Assembly: GCF_023238205.1 (NCBI RefSeq)
Contig: NZ_CP096659.1
Location: 1,116,001 to 1,180,000 of the forward strand
From: Halorussus limi
GTDB lineage: Archaea > Halobacteriota > Halobacteria > Halobacteriales > Haladaptataceae
DNA length: 64,000 nt
Reading direction: 5' to 3'
Notes under the pieces: generated by a model
Seen by the model: only the letters and a program-made list of their open reading frames with translations
Database searches by the model: none
What the model was told of the DNA's origin: nothing
Part shown: in pieces, positions 21,374-30,574 of the stretch
How the letters are laid out: the number at the start of each line of letters is the position of its first letter
Position numbering within the stretch: the stretch's first letter is position 1
Translations under genes and position numbers: made by a program

Positions 21374-21474
21374 GCCCGGAACGTGGAGGAGCGCGCACAA
21401 GAGAATGGCGGTCGTCGGACCGACGGCGGTTCGGAGACCAGATTTATTGTATTTCGCCACCTTAAGTGGGAGGA

Positions 21475-23031
21475 ATGGAGATACCCGGGGAGGCCGTGCG
21501 CGTACTCTACGTCGCCGACAGACAGCGGACCGGTGACTTCGCCGAGTACCTCGGAAGAGAGGACGCCGTCACCGTGGCGCGCGCGGACGACGCGGCGGCC
21601 GGCCTCGACCGCTTGGAATCGGAGACGTTCGGCTGTGTCGTCGGCGACGCGAACGGCGGACTCGACCTGCTCGACGCCGTGCGAGAGCGGTGGCCCGACA
21701 TCCCGTACGTGTTCGTCGCGGGCGAAGGGGACGACGACGCCAGCGAGGCGCTCGCGCGCGGCGCGACCGACTACCTCGAACGACGGGCCGACCGCGACCA
21801 GTCGGCCCTGCTGGTCGTCCGGGTCGAAAACGCCGTGGTGCGCCGGGCCGCCAGCGGTCCGGACGGGTCGCTCGTCACCCGAGAGACGGCCGACGACTAC
21901 GCCCGCATCGCGACCGAACTCCGCGAGAACGAGACCTACCTGCGGAAACTCTACCGGACGGCGTCGAACACCGAACTCTCATACGAACAGAAGCGTCGCC
22001 GACTCCTCGAACTCGGCCGAGAGCGCCTCGACGTGGACGTGGGGTTCGTCTCGCAGGTGGAAGGCGACACGTTCGAAATCGTGGACGCGGTCGGGTCCCA
22101 CGAACTGCTCCAACCCGGCGAGACCGCGCCGCTGGGCGAGACCTACTGCCGGAAGACGGTCGAGGGCGAGGGACTGCTGAGCGTCGAGGACGCCGAGTCG
22201 GAAGGCTGGTCCGACGACCCCGCCTACGAGACGTACGGTCTCGGCTGTTACGTCGGTGCGAAGATATTCGTAAACGGCGACCTCTACGGCACGCTCTGTT
22301 TCGCCGACCGGGACCCCCGCGACAGGGCGTTCTCCGAGAACGAGAAGATATACGTCGAACTCATCTCCCAGTGGTTGGGCTACGAGTACGAGCAGATGGC
22401 CGACGAGAACGCGCTCCGCGAGCAGAACCGCCGCCTCGACGAGTTCGCCAGCGTGGTCAGCCACGACTTGCGCAATCCGCTGAACGTCGCCAGAATCTAC
22501 CTCGAGATGGCCCGAGAGAGCGGTTGCGAGGAGGACTTCGAGCAGGTCGAGGACGCCCACGACCGGATGGAGCAGTTGATTCAGAACCTGCTCACGCTGG
22601 CCCGACAGGGCGACGCGCTACACGACGTGACCGACCACGACCTGTCGGCAGTTACGGCCGAGGCGTGGCAGAGCGTCGAGGCCGACGCCGCCGTCTGTCG
22701 AGCGGAGGACGACGTGACCGTCGAGGCCGACCGCGAGCGTCTCCAGCAACTGCTGGAGAACCTCTTTCGCAACGCGATAGAACACGGCGGCCAAGCGGTG
22801 ACGGTTCGGGTCGGTGCGCTCGACGGCGGCGACGGGTTCTACGTCGCCGACGACGGCCCGGGCGTCCCCGAGAACCGGCGTGAATCGGTGTTCGAACACG
22901 GCTACTCGACGGACGACGGCGGGACCGGACTGGGACTCGCAATCGTTCGGCGCATCGCGGAGGCCCACGACTGGACCGTCTCGGTCGCCGAGAGCGAGAC
23001 GGGCGGCGCGCGCTTCGAGGTTAGATTCTGA
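21475..23031 (+). CDS. GAF-domain sensor histidine kinase with receiver-like N-terminus
   Basis: This 518-aa protein has a receiver-like domain (1-125), a coiled linker, a GAF domain (about 165-305; PLGETYCRKTVEGEGLL and YVGAKIFVNGDLYGTLCF), a HisKA dimerisation helix with the phosphorylated His in VVSHDLRNPL (near 335), and a HATPase domain with N box NLFRNAIEHG, G1 DDGPGVPE and G2 GGTGLGLAIVRR. There is no transmembrane segment, so it is cytoplasmic. The receiver lacks a well-placed phospho-acceptor Asp context and may be a pseudo-receiver. The GAF layout matches bacterio-opsin-activator-like haloarchaeal sensors; the ligand is unknown. A purine-rich GGGAGG just before ATG 21475 supports this start. 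Confidence 0.9.
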   Translation: MEIPGEAVRVLYVADRQRTGDFAEYLGREDAVTVARADDAAAGLDRLESETFGCVVGDANGGLDLLDAVRERWPDIPYVFVAGEGDDDASEALARGATDYLERRADRDQSALLVVRVENAVVRRAASGPDGSLVTRETADDYARIATELRENETYLRKLYRTASNTELSYEQKRRRLLELGRERLDVDVGFVSQVEGDTFEIVDAVGSHELLQPGETAPLGETYCRKTVEGEGLLSVEDAESEGWSDDPAYETYGLGCYVGAKIFVNGDLYGTLCFADRDPRDRAFSENEKIYVELISQWLGYEYEQMADENALREQNRRLDEFASVVSHDLRNPLNVARIYLEMARESGCEEDFEQVEDAHDRMEQLIQNLLTLARQGDALHDVTDHDLSAVTAEAWQSVEADAAVCRAEDDVTVEADRERLQQLLENLFRNAIEHGGQAVTVRVGALDGGDGFYVADDGPGVPENRRESVFEHGYSTDDGGTGLGLAIVRRIAEAHDWTVSVAESETGGARFEVRF

Positions 23032-23112
23032 CCGGGCGTCGGGTCGCGCGATTCCCTCTCCTGGCGGGCACGTGTCGTATCATTGACTGCAATCTTTGCC
23101 GACCCGATAGAG

Positions 23113-23118
23113 TTTAAG
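23113..23118 (+). promoter_or_regulatory. TATA-like box of the argG transcript
   Basis: TTTAAG is the only good TATA-like box between the kinase gene and argG. Typical spacing puts the transcription start near 23143, about 208 bases before argG and exactly at an ATG that opens the 31-codon ORF. Confidence 0.5.
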
Positions 23119-23143
23119 CCCCTCGCTCTCAATGGATGTGACG

Positions 23144-23239
23144 ATGACAGGGACTCGCGGCCCGGGGTCGCTCGCAGGTACCCCCGAGAGCCGTGAGTCC
23201 GCCCTCGTTCTCGCGCGACGACGACCGGGGTCCTTTTAG
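23144..23239 (+). CDS. putative Arg-rich leader ORF upstream of argG (31 aa)
   Basis: A 31-codon frame runs from ATG 23144 to TAG 23237-23239. The peptide contains five Arg, three of them consecutive (CGA CGA CGA) at residues 25-27 close to the stop. The ATG lies where a leaderless transcript from the 23113 TATA box should begin. The stop codon is inside a hairpin. Placement directly upstream of the arginine synthesis genes suggests an arginine-sensing leader peptide. No homologue is known to me, and Arg-rich frames arise by chance in GC-rich DNA, so this stays a hypothesis. An in-frame ATG at 23132 would add four residues. Confidence 0.35.
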   Translation: MTGTRGPGSLAGTPESRESALVLARRRPGSF

Positions 23240-23244
23240 ACCCC
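23227..23244 (+). promoter_or_regulatory. hairpin covering the stop of the leader ORF
   Basis: GGGGTC (23227-23232) pairs perfectly with GACCCC (23239-23244) around the loop CTTTTA. The leader ORF stop codon spans the loop and the 3' arm. It could act as an attenuator or mRNA-stability element for argG; a ribosome stalled at the Arg codons just upstream (23216-23224) would affect its folding. Confidence 0.4.
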
Positions 23245-23351
23245 ACCTTATCCTCATCCCCTGACTCCGCTGGTTTCGTCCCGTTCGACGTCACCCGTAT
23301 CGTCCGCGAACTATCCACTGACACGACACCCGACAACACACCACACCCAAC

Positions 23352-24611
23352 ATGACAGAACAATCGAAAGTCGCGCTCGCCTTCTCGGGCGGACTCGACA
23401 CCACCGTCTGCGTCCCGCTGCTCGAAGAGGAGTACGAACACGACGAAGTAATCGGCGTCACGGTAGACGTCGGCCAACCCGCCGAGGAGTTCGACGAGGC
23501 CGAAGAGACCGCGGAAGCGCTCGACCTCGAACACTACGTCGTGGACGCGAAGGACGCGTTCGCCGACCAGTGTCTCGACGCCGTGAAGGCCAACGCGACG
23601 TATCAGGGCTACCCGCTGGGCACCGCGCTCGCGCGCCCCGTCATCGCCGAGGCCATCCTCGAAGTCGCCGAGGAGAACGACTGCGACGCCATCGCTCACG
23701 GCTGTACCGGCAAGGGCAACGACCAACTTCGCTTCGAGGCGGTCTGGCGCGAGTCGGATTTGGAGGTCATCGCGCCCGTCCGCGAACTCGGCCTGACCCG
23801 CGAGTGGGAGATGGAGTACGCCGACGAGAAGGACCTGCCCGTCGAGGGCGGCAACGAGGGCGACTGGAGCATCGACACCAACCTCTGGAGTCGCTCGGCC
23901 GAGGGCGCGGACCTCGAAGACCCCGGCTACGTTCCGCCGGAGGACATCTACGAGTGGACCGACACGCCCGGTCAGAAGAACGTCGAGACCGTCGAAATCA
24001 CCTTCGAAGAGGGCAAGCCGGTCGCCGTCGACGGCGAGGAGATGCCCGCAGTTCAACTCATCGAGTACCTCAACGACCTCGCCGGGAGCCACGGCGTCGG
24101 CCGCACCGACATGATGGAAGACCGCATGCTCGGCCTGAAGGTCCGCGAGAACTACGAGCATCCCGCCGCGACGACCCTGCTCAACGCCCACGAGGCGCTC
24201 GAAGGACTCGTCCTCACCGAGGAGGAGCGCGCCTTCAAGAAGCAGGTCGACCAGCAGTGGGCAGAGAAAGCCTACGAGGGCCTGCTGTCCGCGCCGCTCG
24301 TGGACGCCCTCGACGGATTCGTGGACACCACCCAGGAGAAGGTCACGGGCACCGTCACCGTGAAGTTCGAGGGCGGACAGGCCCGCCCGGTCGGCCGCGA
24401 GAGCGACTACGCGGTCTACTCCGAGTCGGCCGCCTCGTTCAACACCGAGTCGGTGGACGGCATCGCCCAGAGCGACGCGACCGGCGTGGCGAAGTACCAC
24501 GGCTTCCAGTCCAGACTCGCAAACGAGGTCGCCGCGAACGCCGAGGCCAAGAAGGCCGAACTGCTGACCGACGGTTCCGGCGATGGGACCGAGGAGACGG
24601 AGGAGCAGTAG
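23352..24611 (+). CDS. argG: argininosuccinate synthase
   Basis: This 419-aa enzyme joins citrulline and aspartate with ATP to form argininosuccinate, the penultimate step of arginine synthesis. The N-terminal PP-loop ATP-binding motif is AFSGGLDTTVC (residues 9-19). The family segments YQGYPLGTALARPVIA (near 82-97), HGCTGKGNDQLRFE (near 115-128) and DTNLWSRS (near 176) are all present. Length is normal. It heads the arginine region and is separated by one base from argH, so they are co-transcribed. The upstream region is long (320 bases) and carries the possible leader ORF and hairpin. Confidence 0.97.
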   Translation: MTEQSKVALAFSGGLDTTVCVPLLEEEYEHDEVIGVTVDVGQPAEEFDEAEETAEALDLEHYVVDAKDAFADQCLDAVKANATYQGYPLGTALARPVIAEAILEVAEENDCDAIAHGCTGKGNDQLRFEAVWRESDLEVIAPVRELGLTREWEMEYADEKDLPVEGGNEGDWSIDTNLWSRSAEGADLEDPGYVPPEDIYEWTDTPGQKNVETVEITFEEGKPVAVDGEEMPAVQLIEYLNDLAGSHGVGRTDMMEDRMLGLKVRENYEHPAATTLLNAHEALEGLVLTEEERAFKKQVDQQWAEKAYEGLLSAPLVDALDGFVDTTQEKVTGTVTVKFEGGQARPVGRESDYAVYSESAASFNTESVDGIAQSDATGVAKYHGFQSRLANEVAANAEAKKAELLTDGSGDGTEETEEQ

Positions 24612-24612
24612 A

Positions 24613-26145
24613 ATGACCGAGGAGAGCGGCTCCGCGGGTAGCGAGGAACGTCGTTCCTCCAACGACGCGTCCGACGTGGTGCGCCGCGACCGCTTCAGCG
24701 GCGGCCCCGCCCGCGGGTTCCTCTCCTCGATGGCCGACGACGAGCGCATCTTCGCGGCCGACCTCGCGGTGGACCGCGCCCACGTCGTGATGCTGGCCGA
24801 GCAAGGCGTGGTGAGCGAGGACGAGGCCACCGCAATCCTCTCGGCGCTCGACGAGGTCGAGTCGGCGGGATTCGACGCGCTCCCCGACGGCGAGGACGTT
24901 CACGCCGCCATCGAAACGGCCGTCGTCGGCCGCGCGGGCGACGTCGGCGGGAAGATGCACACCGCCCGGTCGCGCAACGACGAGGTGGCGACCTGTATCC
25001 GCTACCGCCTGCGCGAGGACGTGCTGGACGCCGTCGAGGCGACGCTCGGCCTCCGGAAGTCGCTGGCGGAAGTCGCCGAGGGGCACGCCGAGACCGTGAT
25101 GCCCGGCTACACCCACCTCCAGCCCGCACAGCCGACCACCGTCGGCCACTACCTGCTCTCCTACGAGCAGGCGGTCGCGCGCGACACGGCGCGCCTGTTC
25201 GACGCCTACGCTCGCGTGAACCGCTCGCCGCTCGGTTCCGCCGCGTTCGCGGGCACGCCCTTCGACGTGGACCGCGAGCGCACCGCCGAGTTGCTCGGCT
25301 TCGACGAACTGGTCGCCAACTCGATGGACGCGGTCTCGACCCGCGACTTCCTCGTGGAGGTCGTCGCCGCGCTCGCGAATCTGGCGACCACGGTGTCGGG
25401 CCTCGCCGAGGACCTCGTGGTGTTCTCGAACAAGGGCCTCGTAGAACTGTCCGACGACTACTCCTCGACCTCCTCCATCATGCCCCAGAAGAAGAACCCC
25501 GACACGCTCGAACTCGTGCGGGCGACCGCGGGGGACGCCGCGGCGGGGCTGAACGGCCTGCTCACGACGCTGAAGGGCCTGCCCCGCGCGTACAACCGCG
25601 ACCTCCAGAACGCCACGCCCCACGCGTGGGAGACCGTCGACGCCGTTTCGGAGGCGGTCGCGGTCGCCGCCGGGGCCGCGGCGACCGCGGAGTGGGACGA
25701 GGCGGCGCTGGCCGAGGCGGCCGGTGAGGGCTTCTCGACGGCCACCGGCGTCGCCGACCTCCTGGCGATGGCCGGAGTCCCCTTCCGGAAGGCCCACGAG
25801 ATGGTCGCCGAGAGCAGTGAAAAGGTGTCCAAGAGAAACGAAAATGTTGCTGAAAGCAACGTCAAGGCGTCTTATTTGGACGCGCTCGACGCCGCGGCCG
25901 AGGAGATTCTGGACGACTCGCTGGCGGCCTACGTCGAACGCGAGGCGGTCGAGGCCGCGCTCGACCCCGCCGAGAGCGTCGCGTCGCGCGACTCGACCGG
26001 CGGTCCCGCGCCCGAGTCGGTCGCCGCGGGCCTGACAGCGGCCGAGGAGACCGTCGCGGCCGACGAGGCGGCGCTGGCCGACGCCCGCGAGTCGCTGACG
26101 GCCGCCGACGAGAGACTCCGCACGGAGGTGAGCCGATATGCCTGA
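24613..26145 (+). CDS. argH: argininosuccinate lyase
   Basis: This 510-aa member of the fumarase/aspartase superfamily splits argininosuccinate into arginine and fumarate, the last step of the pathway. Hallmarks are DVGGKMHTARSRNDEVAT (near 115), PGYTHLQPAQPTTVGHYLL (near 163) and the catalytic-loop signature SSIMPQKKNPDTLEL (near 292-306). It is slightly longer than bacterial ArgH because of acidic insertions, including one near the C-terminus (about residues 455-475). Translation starts at ATG 24613, one base after the argG stop, which suggests coupled translation. Confidence 0.97.
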   Translation: MTEESGSAGSEERRSSNDASDVVRRDRFSGGPARGFLSSMADDERIFAADLAVDRAHVVMLAEQGVVSEDEATAILSALDEVESAGFDALPDGEDVHAAIETAVVGRAGDVGGKMHTARSRNDEVATCIRYRLREDVLDAVEATLGLRKSLAEVAEGHAETVMPGYTHLQPAQPTTVGHYLLSYEQAVARDTARLFDAYARVNRSPLGSAAFAGTPFDVDRERTAELLGFDELVANSMDAVSTRDFLVEVVAALANLATTVSGLAEDLVVFSNKGLVELSDDYSSTSSIMPQKKNPDTLELVRATAGDAAAGLNGLLTTLKGLPRAYNRDLQNATPHAWETVDAVSEAVAVAAGAAATAEWDEAALAEAAGEGFSTATGVADLLAMAGVPFRKAHEMVAESSEKVSKRNENVAESNVKASYLDALDAAAEEILDDSLAAYVEREAVEAALDPAESVASRDSTGGPAPESVAAGLTAAEETVAADEAALADARESLTAADERLRTEVSRYA

Positions 26146-26171
26146 GCCACGGCCGGTCCCGTCCGGAACCA

Positions 26172-26177
26172 CATTTA
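26172..26177 (+). promoter_or_regulatory. TATA-like box upstream of lysW (distal)
   Basis: CATTTATAAAC contains a strong TATA-like core at about 26172-26177. Its transcription start would fall near 26200, within the palindrome at 26193-26207. Confidence 0.45.
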
Positions 26178-26192
26178 TAAACTACCGAAGTC

Positions 26193-26207
26193 CGAAATTG
26201 GATTTCG
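26193..26207. promoter_or_regulatory. candidate operator palindrome before lysW
   Basis: CGAAAT-TGG-ATTTCG is a perfect inverted repeat with a three-base centre, 20-odd bases downstream of a strong TATA-like box and about 110 bases before lysW. The geometry suits a dimeric repressor such as an Lrp/AsnC-type or ArgR-like regulator. The identity of the protein is not shown. Confidence 0.4.
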
Positions 26208-26282
26208 TTTGACGCGATATTCGCCCTCTCACGCCCTTAGAGACGACTCTGTGCTATGAAAATATTTTGTCACGTTCGATGG

Positions 26283-26288
26283 TTTTAA
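26283..26288 (+). promoter_or_regulatory. TATA-like box of lysW (proximal)
   Basis: TTTTAA is centred about 31 bases before the lysW ATG at 26317, which predicts a near-leaderless mRNA for the lysW-argXCBDEF operon, independent of argGH. Confidence 0.5.
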
Positions 26289-26316
26289 GTGGTACTGCGG
26301 GATACATTGGAGTGCT

Positions 26317-26481
26317 ATGACCGAATGCGTCGAATGCGGGGCGGACGTGACCCTGCACGACAACGCCGAAGTGGGAGAGATACTCGACTGCACGACCTGC
26401 GGCGCGGAACTGGAACTCGTCGAACGAAACCCGCCAGTCCTCGACCGAGCCCCGGAGCTCGAAGAGGACTGGGGGGAGTAA
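26317..26481 (+). CDS. lysW: amino-group carrier protein LysW
   Basis: This 54-aa acidic carrier holds the glutamate (or alpha-aminoadipate) amino group through an isopeptide bond to its C-terminal Glu during ornithine (or lysine) synthesis. A zinc ribbon is formed by CVECG (residues 4-8) and CTTCG (near 25-29). The C-terminus is the diagnostic EDWGE. The stop is followed one base later by the TTG start of argX, so the carrier and its ligase are made together. In haloarchaea this carrier system serves mainly arginine synthesis, which fits the neighbours here. Confidence 0.95.
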   Translation: MTECVECGADVTLHDNAEVGEILDCTTCGAELELVERNPPVLDRAPELEEDWGE

Positions 26482-26482
26482 G

Positions 26483-27361
26483 TTGCAGGTCGGAATACTC
26501 TACTCCCGGATTCGGAAGGACGAGAAGCTCCTGCTCTCCGAACTCCGCGAGCGCGGCCACGACGTGGTGAAGATAGACGTGCGCGACCTCCAGTTCGGAC
26601 TGGACGAGGCCCCCGAAATCTTCGCGGACCTCGACGTCGTGGTGGACCGGTGTCTCGCCACGAGTCGGAGCCTCTACGCCACCAAGTTCTGCGAGGCGTA
26701 CGGCGTGCCCGTGGTCAACTCCGCGGAGACCGCCCAGACGTGCGCCGACAAGGTTCAGAACAGCCTCGCGCTCGCCGGCGCTGGCGTCCCCACGCCCGCG
26801 ACCGACGTGGCGTTCACCAAGGAGTCGGCGATGGAGAGCATCGAGTCGTTCGGCTACCCCTGCGTCCTCAAGCCCGTGGTCGGGTCGTGGGGTCGCCTGA
26901 TGGCCAAAATCGACTCGCGGAGCGCCGCCGAGGCGATTCTCGAACACAAGGCCACGCTCGGCCACTACGAACACAAGGTGTTCTACGTCCAAGAGTTCGT
27001 GGACAAGCCCGGCCGCGATATTCGCGTCCTCGCGACCGACGGCGACCCCGTCGCCGCGATGGTTCGCTCGTCGGACCACTGGCTCACGAACGCCGCGAAG
27101 GGTGCCGAGACCGAGGCGTTCGAACTCGACGCCGAGGCGAAGAAGCTGGTCCAACAGGCCAGCGACGCGGTCGGCGGCGGCCTGCTGGGCGTGGACCTAA
27201 TGGAGGTCGGTGGAGGGGACGAACCCAACTACACCGTCCACGAGGTCAACCACACGGTCGAGTTCAAGGCGCTGAACGACGCCGCCGACGCGGACGTGCC
27301 GGCCGAAGTGGTCGATTGGCTCGAAACGAAGGCCGCCGCGAAACAGGAGGTGGTCGCCTGA
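26483..27361 (+). CDS. argX: glutamate--LysW ligase ArgX/LysX (ATP-grasp)
   Basis: This 292-aa ATP-grasp ligase attaches glutamate (or alpha-aminoadipate) to LysW and so starts carrier-bound ornithine synthesis. It begins QVGILYSRIRKDEKLL. The ATP-grasp core includes SFGYPCVLKPVVGSWGRLMAKI (near residues 119-140) and the metal-binding GVDLMEV with HEVNHTVEFK (near 238-262). The start is TTG at 26483, one base past the lysW stop; an upstream ATG or GTG would cut into lysW. The Asn in VNHTVEFK is the motif often used to separate ArgX from LysX, and with argF downstream I favour ArgX. Confidence 0.93.
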   Translation: MQVGILYSRIRKDEKLLLSELRERGHDVVKIDVRDLQFGLDEAPEIFADLDVVVDRCLATSRSLYATKFCEAYGVPVVNSAETAQTCADKVQNSLALAGAGVPTPATDVAFTKESAMESIESFGYPCVLKPVVGSWGRLMAKIDSRSAAEAILEHKATLGHYEHKVFYVQEFVDKPGRDIRVLATDGDPVAAMVRSSDHWLTNAAKGAETEAFELDAEAKKLVQQASDAVGGGLLGVDLMEVGGGDEPNYTVHEVNHTVEFKALNDAADADVPAEVVDWLETKAAAKQEVVA

Positions 27362-28449
27362 TGCCCATCGTCGATTCGACCGGAGCGGAGGGAGCGAGCG
27401 CGGACGAGACGCTCTCGGCCACCGTCGTCGGCGCGAGCGGGTTCGCGGGCGGCGAACTCCTCCGCATCCTCTCGGGCCACCCGAACTTCGACCTCGCGGG
27501 CGCGACCAGCCGCGAGTACGCGGGCAAGTCGGTCGGGTCGGTCCACCCGAACCTCCGGGGGACCGACCTCCGGTTCTCGGACCCCGCGGACCTCGACTCC
27601 GTGGACGTGCTGTTCGCCGCGACGCCCCACGGCGTCTCGATGGCGCAGATAGACGCCTTCTACGAGGCGGCCGACACCGTGGTGGACCTGAGCGCCGACT
27701 TCCGGTTGAACACCGCCGAGCAGTACGAGGAGTGGTACGACGGCCACGACGCGCCCGAGTATCTGGACGAGGCGGTGTACGCCCTGCCGGAACTCCACCG
27801 CGAGGAGTTGCCCGGCGCGGACCTCGTCGCCGCGGGCGGGTGCAACGCCACCGCGACGATTCTCGGCCTCCATCCGCTGTTCGAGGCCGGGATTCTCGAC
27901 GGCGACGGGAGCGAGCAGATAGTCGCAGACGTGAAGGTCGGGTCCTCGGAGGGCGGCGCGACGTCGAGCGAGGCCGGAAGTCACGCCGAGCGCTCGGGCG
28001 TCGTCCGGCCCTACGCGCCGACCGGCCACCGCCACGAGGCCGAAATCGAGCAGGAACTGGGCGCCGAGGTGTCCTTCTCGGCCCACGCCGTGGACATGGT
28101 CCGCGGCGCGGCCGCGACCTGCCACGTCTTCCCGAGTTCGCCCGTCTCGAAGGGCGACCTCTGGTCGGCCTTCCGCGGGGCCTACGACGAGGAACCGTTC
28201 GTCCGCCTACAGTCCGGCGGGTCGGGCGTCTATCGCTACCCCGAACCGAAGGCAGTCGCGGGCACCAACTACGCCGAAGTCGGCTTCGAGTTGGACCCCG
28301 GAAACGAGCGCGTCGTGGTGTTCAGCGCCATCGACAATCTGGTGAAAGGCACGGCCGGGCAGGCGGTCCACGCCGCCAACCTCGCGCTCGGCCTCGAAGA
28401 GACCGCGGGACTCGACTTTCAGGGACTCCACCCGGTGGGAAGCCCATGA
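27361..28449 (+). CDS. argC: LysW-gamma-glutamyl-phosphate reductase (ArgC/LysY)
   Basis: This 362-aa NADPH-dependent enzyme reduces the LysW-bound gamma-glutamyl phosphate to the semialdehyde. The nucleotide-binding motif is VVGASGFAGGELLR (near residues 23-36) and the catalytic Cys lies in AAGGCNATATILGL (near 161). PHGVS and DLSADFRL are also typical of the ArgC family. The ATG at 27361 shares one base with the argX stop. About 20 extra acidic residues precede the Rossmann fold, a common haloarchaeal extension. Confidence 0.95.
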   Translation: MPIVDSTGAEGASADETLSATVVGASGFAGGELLRILSGHPNFDLAGATSREYAGKSVGSVHPNLRGTDLRFSDPADLDSVDVLFAATPHGVSMAQIDAFYEAADTVVDLSADFRLNTAEQYEEWYDGHDAPEYLDEAVYALPELHREELPGADLVAAGGCNATATILGLHPLFEAGILDGDGSEQIVADVKVGSSEGGATSSEAGSHAERSGVVRPYAPTGHRHEAEIEQELGAEVSFSAHAVDMVRGAAATCHVFPSSPVSKGDLWSAFRGAYDEEPFVRLQSGGSGVYRYPEPKAVAGTNYAEVGFELDPGNERVVVFSAIDNLVKGTAGQAVHAANLALGLEETAGLDFQGLHPVGSP

Positions 28450-29438
28450 CGGACGAGTACACGAAAGCGGACCTCGAAGCGGCACACGAGCAACTTATCG
28501 ACAACGACCTCGGCGACGACGGACTCCGGACTGATGGAGGAGCGGTCGGCGGAGACGAACAGAACCCGCCCGTCGTCGTCAAAATCGGCGGCGCGCGTGC
28601 CGTGGACCCCGAAGGCGCGCTAGCGGACATCGCGCACCTCGTCGCCAACGGCGAGGACGTGGTGGTCGTCCACGGCGGTTCGACCGCGGTGGACGACACC
28701 TTGGAGCGCCTCGGCGAAGAGGCCGAGTACGTCGAGACGCCCGGCGGCGTCGTCGGACGCTTCACCGACGAGACGACGATGGAGGTCTTCGAGATGGTCC
28801 TGCCCGGCAAACTCAACACCGACCTCGTGGCCGCGCTCCAGAACGAGGGCGTGAACGCGGTCGGTCTCTCTGGCGCGGACGGAAAGCTCCTGACCGGCCC
28901 GCGCAAGTCGGCGGTCAAGGTGGTCGAGGACGGCCGGAAGAAAATCCGCAGGGGCGACCACTCGGGCAAAATCGAGGCGGTCAACGACGACCTGCTCTCG
29001 ACCCTGCTCGCCGGAAGCTACGTCCCGGTCGTCACGGTGCCGATGCTCGCCGAGGAGTCGCGCGGCGCGTCGAAGACGGGCGGCGGAGGCGGCGCGGGCG
29101 CGACGGAGTACACGCCCGTCAACGCCGACGCCGACCGCGCGGCCGCCGCGATTGCGGGCGCGCTGGGCGGCGAGTTAGTCGTGCTGACCGACGTGGCGGG
29201 CGTCTACGAGGACCCCGACGACCCCGAGTCGGTCATCGAGCGCGTCGGGACCCCCGCGGAGTTGGACGCCGCCGAGGCGGCCGCGGAGGGGTTCATGACG
29301 AAGAAAGTCATGGCGGCGGTCGAAGCCCTCGACGGCGGTGCGGCCTCGGTGACGGTCGCGGACGCGAACAACCGCGACCCCATCACCGCGGCCCGGACCG
29401 GCCACGGAACGACCTTCGAACCCGGGGCGGTGAGATGA
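28446..29438 (+). CDS. argB: LysW-glutamate/acetylglutamate kinase (ArgB/LysZ)
   Basis: This 330-aa amino-acid-kinase family enzyme phosphorylates the side-chain carboxylate of LysW-bound glutamate. Recognisable parts are VVVKIGGARA (near residue 41), VVVHGGSTAVDD (near 75) and the ATP-binding NADADRAAAAIAGALGG with LTDVAGVYEDP (near 220-258). It is longer than bacterial ArgB because of an acidic N-terminal extension (about 38 residues) and a Gly-rich insert near 205. It overlaps argC by four bases (ATGA). Confidence 0.94.
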   Translation: MTDEYTKADLEAAHEQLIDNDLGDDGLRTDGGAVGGDEQNPPVVVKIGGARAVDPEGALADIAHLVANGEDVVVVHGGSTAVDDTLERLGEEAEYVETPGGVVGRFTDETTMEVFEMVLPGKLNTDLVAALQNEGVNAVGLSGADGKLLTGPRKSAVKVVEDGRKKIRRGDHSGKIEAVNDDLLSTLLAGSYVPVVTVPMLAEESRGASKTGGGGGAGATEYTPVNADADRAAAAIAGALGGELVVLTDVAGVYEDPDDPESVIERVGTPAELDAAEAAAEGFMTKKVMAAVEALDGGAASVTVADANNRDPITAARTGHGTTFEPGAVR

Positions 29439-30574
29439 TGTCCGGATTCGTCTACTCCGAGAAGCCGATTCGAATCGAATCGGGCGAGGACGCGTACCTC
29501 TACGACGATTCGGGCGACGAGTACCTCGACTTCGGCGCGAGTTACGGCGTCGCCGCGGTCGGTCACTGCCACCCCGAGGTCGTCGAGGCCGTCCGGTCGC
29601 AGGTCGAGAAGCTGACTTTCGTGCAGGCCAGCTATCCCAACTCGGCCCGCGACGGTCTCTACGACAAACTGGCGGCGGTCGCGCCCGGTGACTTGGAGAA
29701 CGTCTGGCTCTGCAACTCCGGCACCGAGGCCAACGAGGCGGCCATCAAGTTCGCGCGGAGCGCCACGGGCGACTCCAAAATCGTCGCGGCGCAACGCGGC
29801 TTTCACGGCCGGACGATGGGGTCGCTCGCGGCGACGTGGAAACCCAAGTACAAGAAGCCATTCGAACCGCTCGCGAGCGACTTCGAGTTCGTCCCCTACG
29901 GCGACCGGCAAGCCCTCGAAGCGGCCGTGGACGACGAGACGGCCGCGGTCCTGCTCGAACCGATTCAGGGCGAGGGCGGCGTGAACCCCGCGCCCGAGGG
30001 CTACCTGAACGCGGCCCGCGAGGTGACGGAGGAGACCGGGTCGGCGCTGATTCTGGACGAGATTCAGACCGGACTCGGCCGGACGGGCGCGCTGTGGGCC
30101 TGCGAGAAGCGCGGCGTCGTCCCCGACGTGCTCACGTCGGCGAAGGGACTCGGCGGCGGCCTCCCGGTCGGCGCGACCCTCTGTGCCGACTGGGTAGCCG
30201 AGAACGCGGGACCGCACGGGTCGACGTTCTCGGGCGGGCCGGTGGTGAGCGCGGCCGCGGAGGCCACGCTCTCGGTCATCGCCGAGGAGAATCTGCCGGA
30301 GAACGCCGCCGAGGTCGGCGACCGCCTCCAGTCGAAACTGAGGGGGTCCGACGCGCCGATTCGCGCGGTCCGCGGCGAGGGCCTGCTCCTCGGCGCGGAG
30401 GTGAAACGCGGCGCGAACCGCATCCTGAAGGAACTGGCGATGAACCACGGGATTCTGGCGCTCCCCGCGGGCCGGACCGTGGTGCGCCTGCTCCCGCCGC
30501 TGACCGTCTCGGAGGCCCACGCCGACGAAGTGGTCGCGGCGCTCGAAAGCGTCCTCGCGGGGGCCGAGACGTGA
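29435..30574 (+). CDS. argD: LysW-ornithine/acetylornithine aminotransferase (ArgD/LysJ)
   Basis: This 379-aa class III PLP aminotransferase converts the LysW-bound semialdehyde to LysW-ornithine using glutamate. The motifs are the PLP-phosphate site NSGTEANEAAIKFAR (near residue 92), the PLP-ring Asp in LILDEIQTGLGRTG (near 205) and the Schiff-base Lys in LTSAKGLGGGLPVGA (near 235). Two adjacent ATGs (29435 and 29438) are possible; the first overlaps the argB stop by four bases. Confidence 0.94.
   Translation: MMSGFVYSEKPIRIESGEDAYLYDDSGDEYLDFGASYGVAAVGHCHPEVVEAVRSQVEKLTFVQASYPNSARDGLYDKLAAVAPGDLENVWLCNSGTEANEAAIKFARSATGDSKIVAAQRGFHGRTMGSLAATWKPKYKKPFEPLASDFEFVPYGDRQALEAAVDDETAAVLLEPIQGEGGVNPAPEGYLNAAREVTEETGSALILDEIQTGLGRTGALWACEKRGVVPDVLTSAKGLGGGLPVGATLCADWVAENAGPHGSTFSGGPVVSAAAEATLSVIAEENLPENAAEVGDRLQSKLRGSDAPIRAVRGEGLLLGAEVKRGANRILKELAMNHGILALPAGRTVVRLLPPLTVSEAHADEVVAALESVLAGAET

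Follow-up and report, generated by a model that had tools for sequence, protein, structure and literature searches.

A likely arginine-specific leader-peptide control element in front of argG in haloarchaea

The argG gene of Halorussus limi is preceded by a short open reading frame that ends in a run of arginine codons next to a hairpin, and the hairpin holds the stop codon of the frame. We consider this a likely cis-acting, arginine-specific leader-peptide control element. What is shown here is its DNA anatomy and conservation, its specificity for the amino acid, its bias to rare codons, its structure and its geometry, while transcription start, translation, stalling and termination are inferred. 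Against the model stands the lack of transcript, ribosome-profiling or expression data for any such leader. The element lies in the window, by which we mean the whole 64,000-nucleotide stretch that was analysed (contig NZ_CP096659.1, positions 1,116,001 to 1,180,000). Its parts, in window coordinates, are as follows.

23089-23099, no strand assigned: palindrome GCAATCTTTGC (GCAA-N3-TTGC), a candidate operator 5' of promoter P1 and the sole copy in the 64 kb
23113-23118, + strand: TATA box TTTAAG of promoter P1, its first T 31 nt from the leader ATG
23144-23239, + strand: leader peptide ORF of 31 codons, MTGTRGPGSLAGTPESRESALVLARRRPGSF and a stop, with the ATG at 23144 and the stop TAG at 23237-23239
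23151-23200, + strand: hairpin 1, within the leader ORF, arms 23151-23160 and 23191-23200, from the family alignment
23216-23224, + strand: putative sensor CGA CGA CGA, Arg25-Arg27, from the arginine excess in frame and the CGA bias
23227-23244, + strand: hairpin 2, GGGGTC-CTTTTA-GACCCC, which holds the stop TAG; its arms differ yet stay paired among relatives
23245-23269, + strand: pyrimidine-rich, G-poor tract past hairpin 2, accttatcctcatcccctgactccg, from base composition over 152 loci
23292-23313, + strand: CACCCGTATCGTCCGCGAACTA, kept in Halorussus and able to pair with the Arg-run segment, from alignment and MFE fold
23352-24611, + strand: argG (argininosuccinate synthase), first in argG-argH-lysW-argX..., from PF00764 and PF20979

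A sequence-only reading had placed the TATA box, the ATG, the 31 codons, the CGA run, the hairpin and the stop, and these coordinates held base for base. Its claim of a sole TATA-like box also held, as no TATA box besides P1 lies close before argG in the window's genome. Its interpretation as an arginine-sensing leader is supported by the comparison below, with expression, stalling and termination output unproven. The word attenuator, which it also used, is supported as a function but not as a bacterial structure, because no classical pair of terminator and antiterminator, complete with U-tract, can be made out.

The position of the P1 TATA box predicts a leaderless leader transcript; this is inferred from the TATA spacing, and no transcript has been mapped. 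Another in-frame ATG, at 23132 in the window's genome, is not kept in relatives. Hairpin 2 consists of 6 bp with no mismatch, the stop codon running from the loop one base into the 3' arm, and the leader RNA folds more stably than its shuffles (z = -2.5). When both strands of the window were scanned for short ORFs preceded at 20-36 nt by a TATA box and ending in a stop within a G+C hairpin, the argG leader was the sole match. The leader peptide has no Pfam match. The covariance models of Rfam 15 gave no match at E <= 1 in window positions 21400-30000, and five related loci yielded none at E <= 0.1. Pfam confirmed the gene order argG, argH, lysW, argX. Directly 5' on the same strand (21466-23031) is a hybrid response-regulator/GAF/histidine-kinase gene, whose end is some 80 nt from the P1 TATA box.

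Comparison with close relatives, which the sequence-only reading had suggested as a check, was run and showed the Arg run and hairpin to be conserved. The argG leader was found in 18 of 18 Halorussus genomes searched and in 10 of 10 other genomes of the family, one with the frame lost and one with the stop shifted. Among the 18 Halorussus genomes, 16 place the leader ATG 31 nt after the first T of the TATA box; the distance is 30 nt in one of the remaining two and 33 nt in the other. The Halorussus ORFs have 30-32 codons and end in RRRPG[S/R/L/P][L/F/P] before the stop, with 2-4 Arg codons in the run (four in L003 and L005, two in L018). Two loci of the sister genus amount to natural experiments: at L033 the leader reading frame has been lost through an indel, and at L036 CAG replaces the TAG stop, with a new stop three codons on.

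Further argG upstream regions were taken from seven other families (40), from deeper families and from 80 named genomes. The comparison is one of sampled genes, not a genome-wide census of such leaders. An automated scan found the design in 152 of 165 haloarchaeal argG loci, at least six of the 152 being one genome counted twice; by eye, most of the 13 loci missed hold a variant, such as a G-U pair in the stem. The distance from the first T of the TATA box to the leader ATG is 30-34 nt in 148 of the 152 detected loci and 29-34 nt in 150. Nearly every haloarchaeal family examined has the argG leader. Haloferax is represented by Haloferax marinum (L294), H. volcanii not being in the set, and its argG leader is of the same design (MATRSTLATFAPLRAAGIRRRRPAL and a stop). 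The element is present in Halobacterium relatives as well, and because both groups carry it, it could be tested at once by existing genetics and Ribo-seq. Three deep-branching families (L213-L220) and 14 assessable genomes from other orders of the phylum showed no leader at argG, nor did additional copies of the gene (L221, L222). Because it is absent from the outgroups and the deep-branching families, the argG leader probably arose within the haloarchaeal lineage.

We then applied a strict definition requiring a TATA box, an ATG and a stop within a stem of at least 5 bp. This was met by 123 of 165 argG loci versus 6 of 3,300 dinucleotide shuffles (0.2%). Each of the 123 strict leaders places two or more Arg codons beside the hairpin, and in 121 of them the number is three or higher, so that clustered codons for the operon's own product occur at 121 of 165 argG loci; not one of the 3,300 shuffles had three Arg by the hairpin. 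The last ten codons hold 3.96 Arg when read in the ORF frame; the two alternative frames give 1.7 and 1.5. Codon choice is equally skewed, with CGA accounting for 482 of 683 Arg codons in the run (71%) versus 38 of 1,762 in 120 argG genes (2.2%). Beyond the Arg run the peptides differ by family (RRRPGSL, RPRRPGLF, RRRRRRRAL, RRERAGR), and therefore it is the amino acid, not the peptide, that appears to be under selection.

A second operon shows the same anatomy with different codons. We compared the upstream regions of ilvB at 17 Halorussus loci and 20 from other genera, and 30 of the 37 satisfy the strict definition, with the stop placed in the hairpin as at argG. All 30 strict ilvB leaders have at least four Ile/Leu/Val codons by the hairpin, and in none are there two or more Arg. 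The core of the peptide is VERVIIVGA followed by a stop (TGA, TAA or TAG), which sits in the loop of GTAGGGGC-CTGA-GCCCCTAC. Rare codons are favored in the leader relative to the ilvB gene, ATT at 77% versus 13% and GTA at 50% versus 1%. Since leader codons match the product at both argG and ilvB, we infer amino-acid sensing by a translating ribosome. This match at both operons is the strongest argument for such sensing, and ilvB provides independent support. In Halorussus, no such leader was found upstream of trpC, trpD and hisG (0/51 loci) or of leuA (0/30 loci).

The short out-of-frame ORF near each Halorussus leuA start was considered and rejected, as it does not fit the leader design. In the window's genome, leuA copy 1 (L308, minus strand) has a perfect palindrome, TTATTCGGGGGTCCCCCGAATAA, just within its 5' end, accompanied by a 12-codon out-of-frame ATG ORF. 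At copy 2 (L328, plus strand), a leaderless out-of-frame ORF, MSDNDMHSSDTSRAGRVLRRYVEN, overlaps the gene start.

These data bear on whether the ORF product itself matters, either as a functional small protein or as an arginine-sensing arrest peptide of the kind known in fungi. The frequency of RRRPG at the C-terminus in several families speaks for it. However, there is no conservation beyond the Arg run, the ilvB leader has I/V in the same place, and the CGA bias fits tRNA supply rather than peptide chemistry. We regard a role of the peptide itself as highly improbable.

Hairpin 1 is supported by the family alignment. Over its 27 genomes, 92.6% of cells in the hairpin are paired, both sides have changed in 4 of 7 pairs, and the covariation score was reached by 0 of 500 shuffles; sliding the partner leaves only 18-44% paired. 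At hairpin 2 the stem letters change as pairs, and the stop remains in or just beside it across loci. The arms are GGGCC/GGCCC at 54 loci, GGCCC/GGGCC at 22, CGGGC/GCCCG at 22 and GGGTC/GACCC at 20, with GGGGC/GCCCC and ACCCC/GGGGT among further pairs. Because the scan demanded a stem, these counts are biased toward pairing; the fair comparison is the one with shuffles. The loop of hairpin 2 in argG leaders varies from 3 to 8 nt.

A palindrome could also act as DNA, with hairpin 2 bound by a regulator and the ORF incidental. In favor of this, it is a perfect inverted repeat just 3' of the promoter, and the ilvB stem, GTAGGGG/CCCCTAC, is almost invariant. On the other hand, the argG stem sequence and loop length vary freely with pairing kept, unlike an operator, and the variable loop in particular disfavors this reading. 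The reading frame, the place of the stop, the encoded amino acid and the preference for rare codons are all kept, and GCAA-N3-TTGC upstream is a better operator candidate. There is very little to recommend the DNA-operator explanation.

In 112 of 152 loci, the last Arg codon ends 1-2 nt before the stem. In modelling that assumes a bacterial-sized footprint, a ribosome with the second or third CGA in its A site abolishes hairpin 2, and one with the first CGA there cuts it to 4 bp. A ribosome at the stop codon likewise abolishes hairpin 2, and therefore the model requires release to be fast relative to stalling.

We propose that transcription from P1 would begin at or next to the leader ATG, as the TATA spacing predicts, and that the leader ORF would be translated as a leaderless message by a ribosome close behind RNA polymerase. 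When Arg-tRNA is scarce, the ribosome would stall at the rare CGA codons, its footprint would cover the 5' arm of hairpin 2, and the hairpin would not form. With hairpin 2 open, RNA polymerase would read on into argG-argH-lysW-argX. With ample arginine, the ribosome would get to the stop and depart, and hairpin 2 would form where the untranslated G-poor tract begins. This would lead to an early end of transcription, either intrinsic or with FttA/aCPSF1. In H. volcanii in vivo, a hairpin has been reported to terminate 59% of transcripts and a T-stretch 95% (PMC7237163). Coupling of transcription and translation is supported in Haloferax by the co-purification of RNA polymerase with ribosomal proteins and initiation factors (PMC8576121). 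We prefer transcription termination as the output over FttA-dependent polarity or translation, but it has not been shown and the alternatives are not excluded.

No U-tract follows hairpin 2 across the argG loci compared; where a second promoter is lacking, the longest T-run ahead of argG is 2-3 in most genomes. The 25 nt past the hairpin (152 loci) instead contain 10% G, 41% C and 28% T, with the first G at a median of 18 nt, and the RNA past the hairpin in ilvB leaders is also pyrimidine-rich and G-poor. Another possibility is that, with the same sensor, termination is brought about not by hairpin 2 but by FttA (aCPSF1), acting on RNA left untranslated beyond the leader stop, as a Rho-like polarity attenuator. 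The 25-nt C/U-rich, G-poor tract at both argG and ilvB is consistent with this, and FttA is considered probably responsible for polarity in archaea (PMC12548453). However, FttA polarity alone does not account for the retention of the stop within a hairpin with co-varying arms, and the RNA in question is just as exposed while a ribosome is stalled upstream.

Promoter arrangement differs between genomes. P1 is the sole promoter in Halorussus and in about half of the loci (77/165), while a second TATA box, P2, lies close before argG in the other 88. P1 therefore cannot be the sole source of argG in those genomes. From its sequence, P2 would be predicted to yield a leaderless argG mRNA. P2 loci, which include L044-L049, L053-L057, L061-L065, L071 and L072, have a T-rich stretch (e.g. 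TTTTATTTC) 5' of a TATA box about 30 nt before argG, often with a conserved TAGC...CTCT-like element. Conceivably, the T-rich stretch and second TATA box are a leader terminator plus a promoter for leaderless argG.

Another alternative retains the sensor but gives it a translational or processing output, whereby refolding of the leader would alter argG translation or mRNA stability with transcription unaffected. The missing U-tract favors this. So does the conserved downstream segment in Halorussus, which can pair with the Arg run, and therefore stalling would alter long-range structure. The argG start, which has no Shine-Dalgarno and lies in an unstructured A/C-rich stretch, is a further point for it. 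However, hairpin 2 is a median of 96-141 nt from argG, whereas termination-reinitiation coupling in H. volcanii is lost beyond about 30 nt (PMC12548453); reinitiation from the leader stop to argG is therefore unlikely and was rejected as the main mechanism on this distance. Nor is the downstream pairing general. By alignment and MFE fold it is clear only in Halorussus, a further family has a comparable partner in just two genomes (L043, L080), and the CACCCGTATCGTCCGCGAACTA-type segment was not seen in families with a second promoter. Where P2 is present, argG would be leaderless and beyond the reach of leader folding. We consider this output unlikely. As an Arg-run partner is clear in Halorussus only, a general terminator/antiterminator switch was left out of our model.

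In the window, the palindrome GCAA-N3-TTGC is found 55 nt upstream of the ATG of the argG leader. The same motif is present in 22 of 34 ilvB leaders from loci L081-L097 and L161-L180, mostly 57 or 60 nt before the ATG, and in 0 of 51 upstream regions of trpC, trpD and hisG. Because it precedes both leaders at a fixed distance, one shared regulator acting on top of them is suggested, and the palindrome may be the site of such an amino-acid regulator.

The proposed element resembles attenuation of the bacterial trp, his, leu and ilv operons in having a short ORF before the operon, a run of product codons with rare codons preferred, and a hairpin placed such that a stalled ribosome decides its formation. 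It differs in that the haloarchaeal ORF is leaderless with its stop inside the hairpin, its sequence is unrelated to known leaders, and there is neither a U-tract nor a conserved antiterminator. Because the U-tract terminator is missing and no conserved antiterminator was found, we do not classify it as a bacterial-type attenuator. In pyrBI/ampC-type attenuation, the leader ORF overlaps a U-tract terminator and UTP or translation rate is sensed. Similarly, the argG leader ORF extends into its hairpin, which would be held open by the ribosome itself, although the haloarchaeal leader is proposed to sense a specific amino acid. The fungal arginine attenuator peptide (CPA1, arg-2) is a conserved nascent peptide that senses arginine. 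It too is encoded by a short upstream ORF and is arginine-responsive, as proposed here, whereas haloarchaeal leaders conserve only the Arg codons. T-box and riboswitch leaders are likewise cis-acting RNAs before amino-acid genes, but the argG leader has no Rfam match and its sensor is a codon run.

A 2010 survey reported leader peptides in Proteobacteria, Actinobacteria and, newly, Firmicutes (PMC2965389), and a 2014 paper described attenuators in archaea as without experimental support (PMC4247193). We found no earlier report of archaeal amino-acid leader-peptide attenuation in the literature searched, which excluded most subscription papers. Codon-matched leader peptides precede two operons over most of the whole order. 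It is likely that haloarchaea evolved ribosome-dependent, amino-acid-specific attenuation after leaving the other Halobacteriota, independently of bacteria, for at least the arginine and branched-chain operons. If so, this would be the first such system in Archaea, attenuation of this kind having so far been documented only in bacteria, and attenuation would have had an independent evolutionary origin. It would also mean that transcription and translation are coupled tightly enough for gene regulation where the RNA polymerase is Pol II-like and translation is leaderless.

A start-site study of H. volcanii made the case that haloarchaea do not typically have structured leaders, and argG and ilvB are not among its 16 uORFs of long 5' UTRs (PMC4983044). 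All 16 uORF peptides have a low isoelectric point, unlike the Arg-rich leaders, which tempers the absence of argG and ilvB from that list. Separately, H. volcanii sRNA_61 is 111 nt long with a 32-aa ORF lacking a stop, and shows high ribosome occupancy with no protein detected (PMC12482152). Ribosome-bound 'untranslated' small RNAs of this organism could perhaps include leader RNAs of the type described here. The H. volcanii pheS and Trp-tRNA ligase genes have uORFs of 26 and 23 aa, respectively, in long 5' UTRs (PMC4983044), and these are possible codon-matched leaders.
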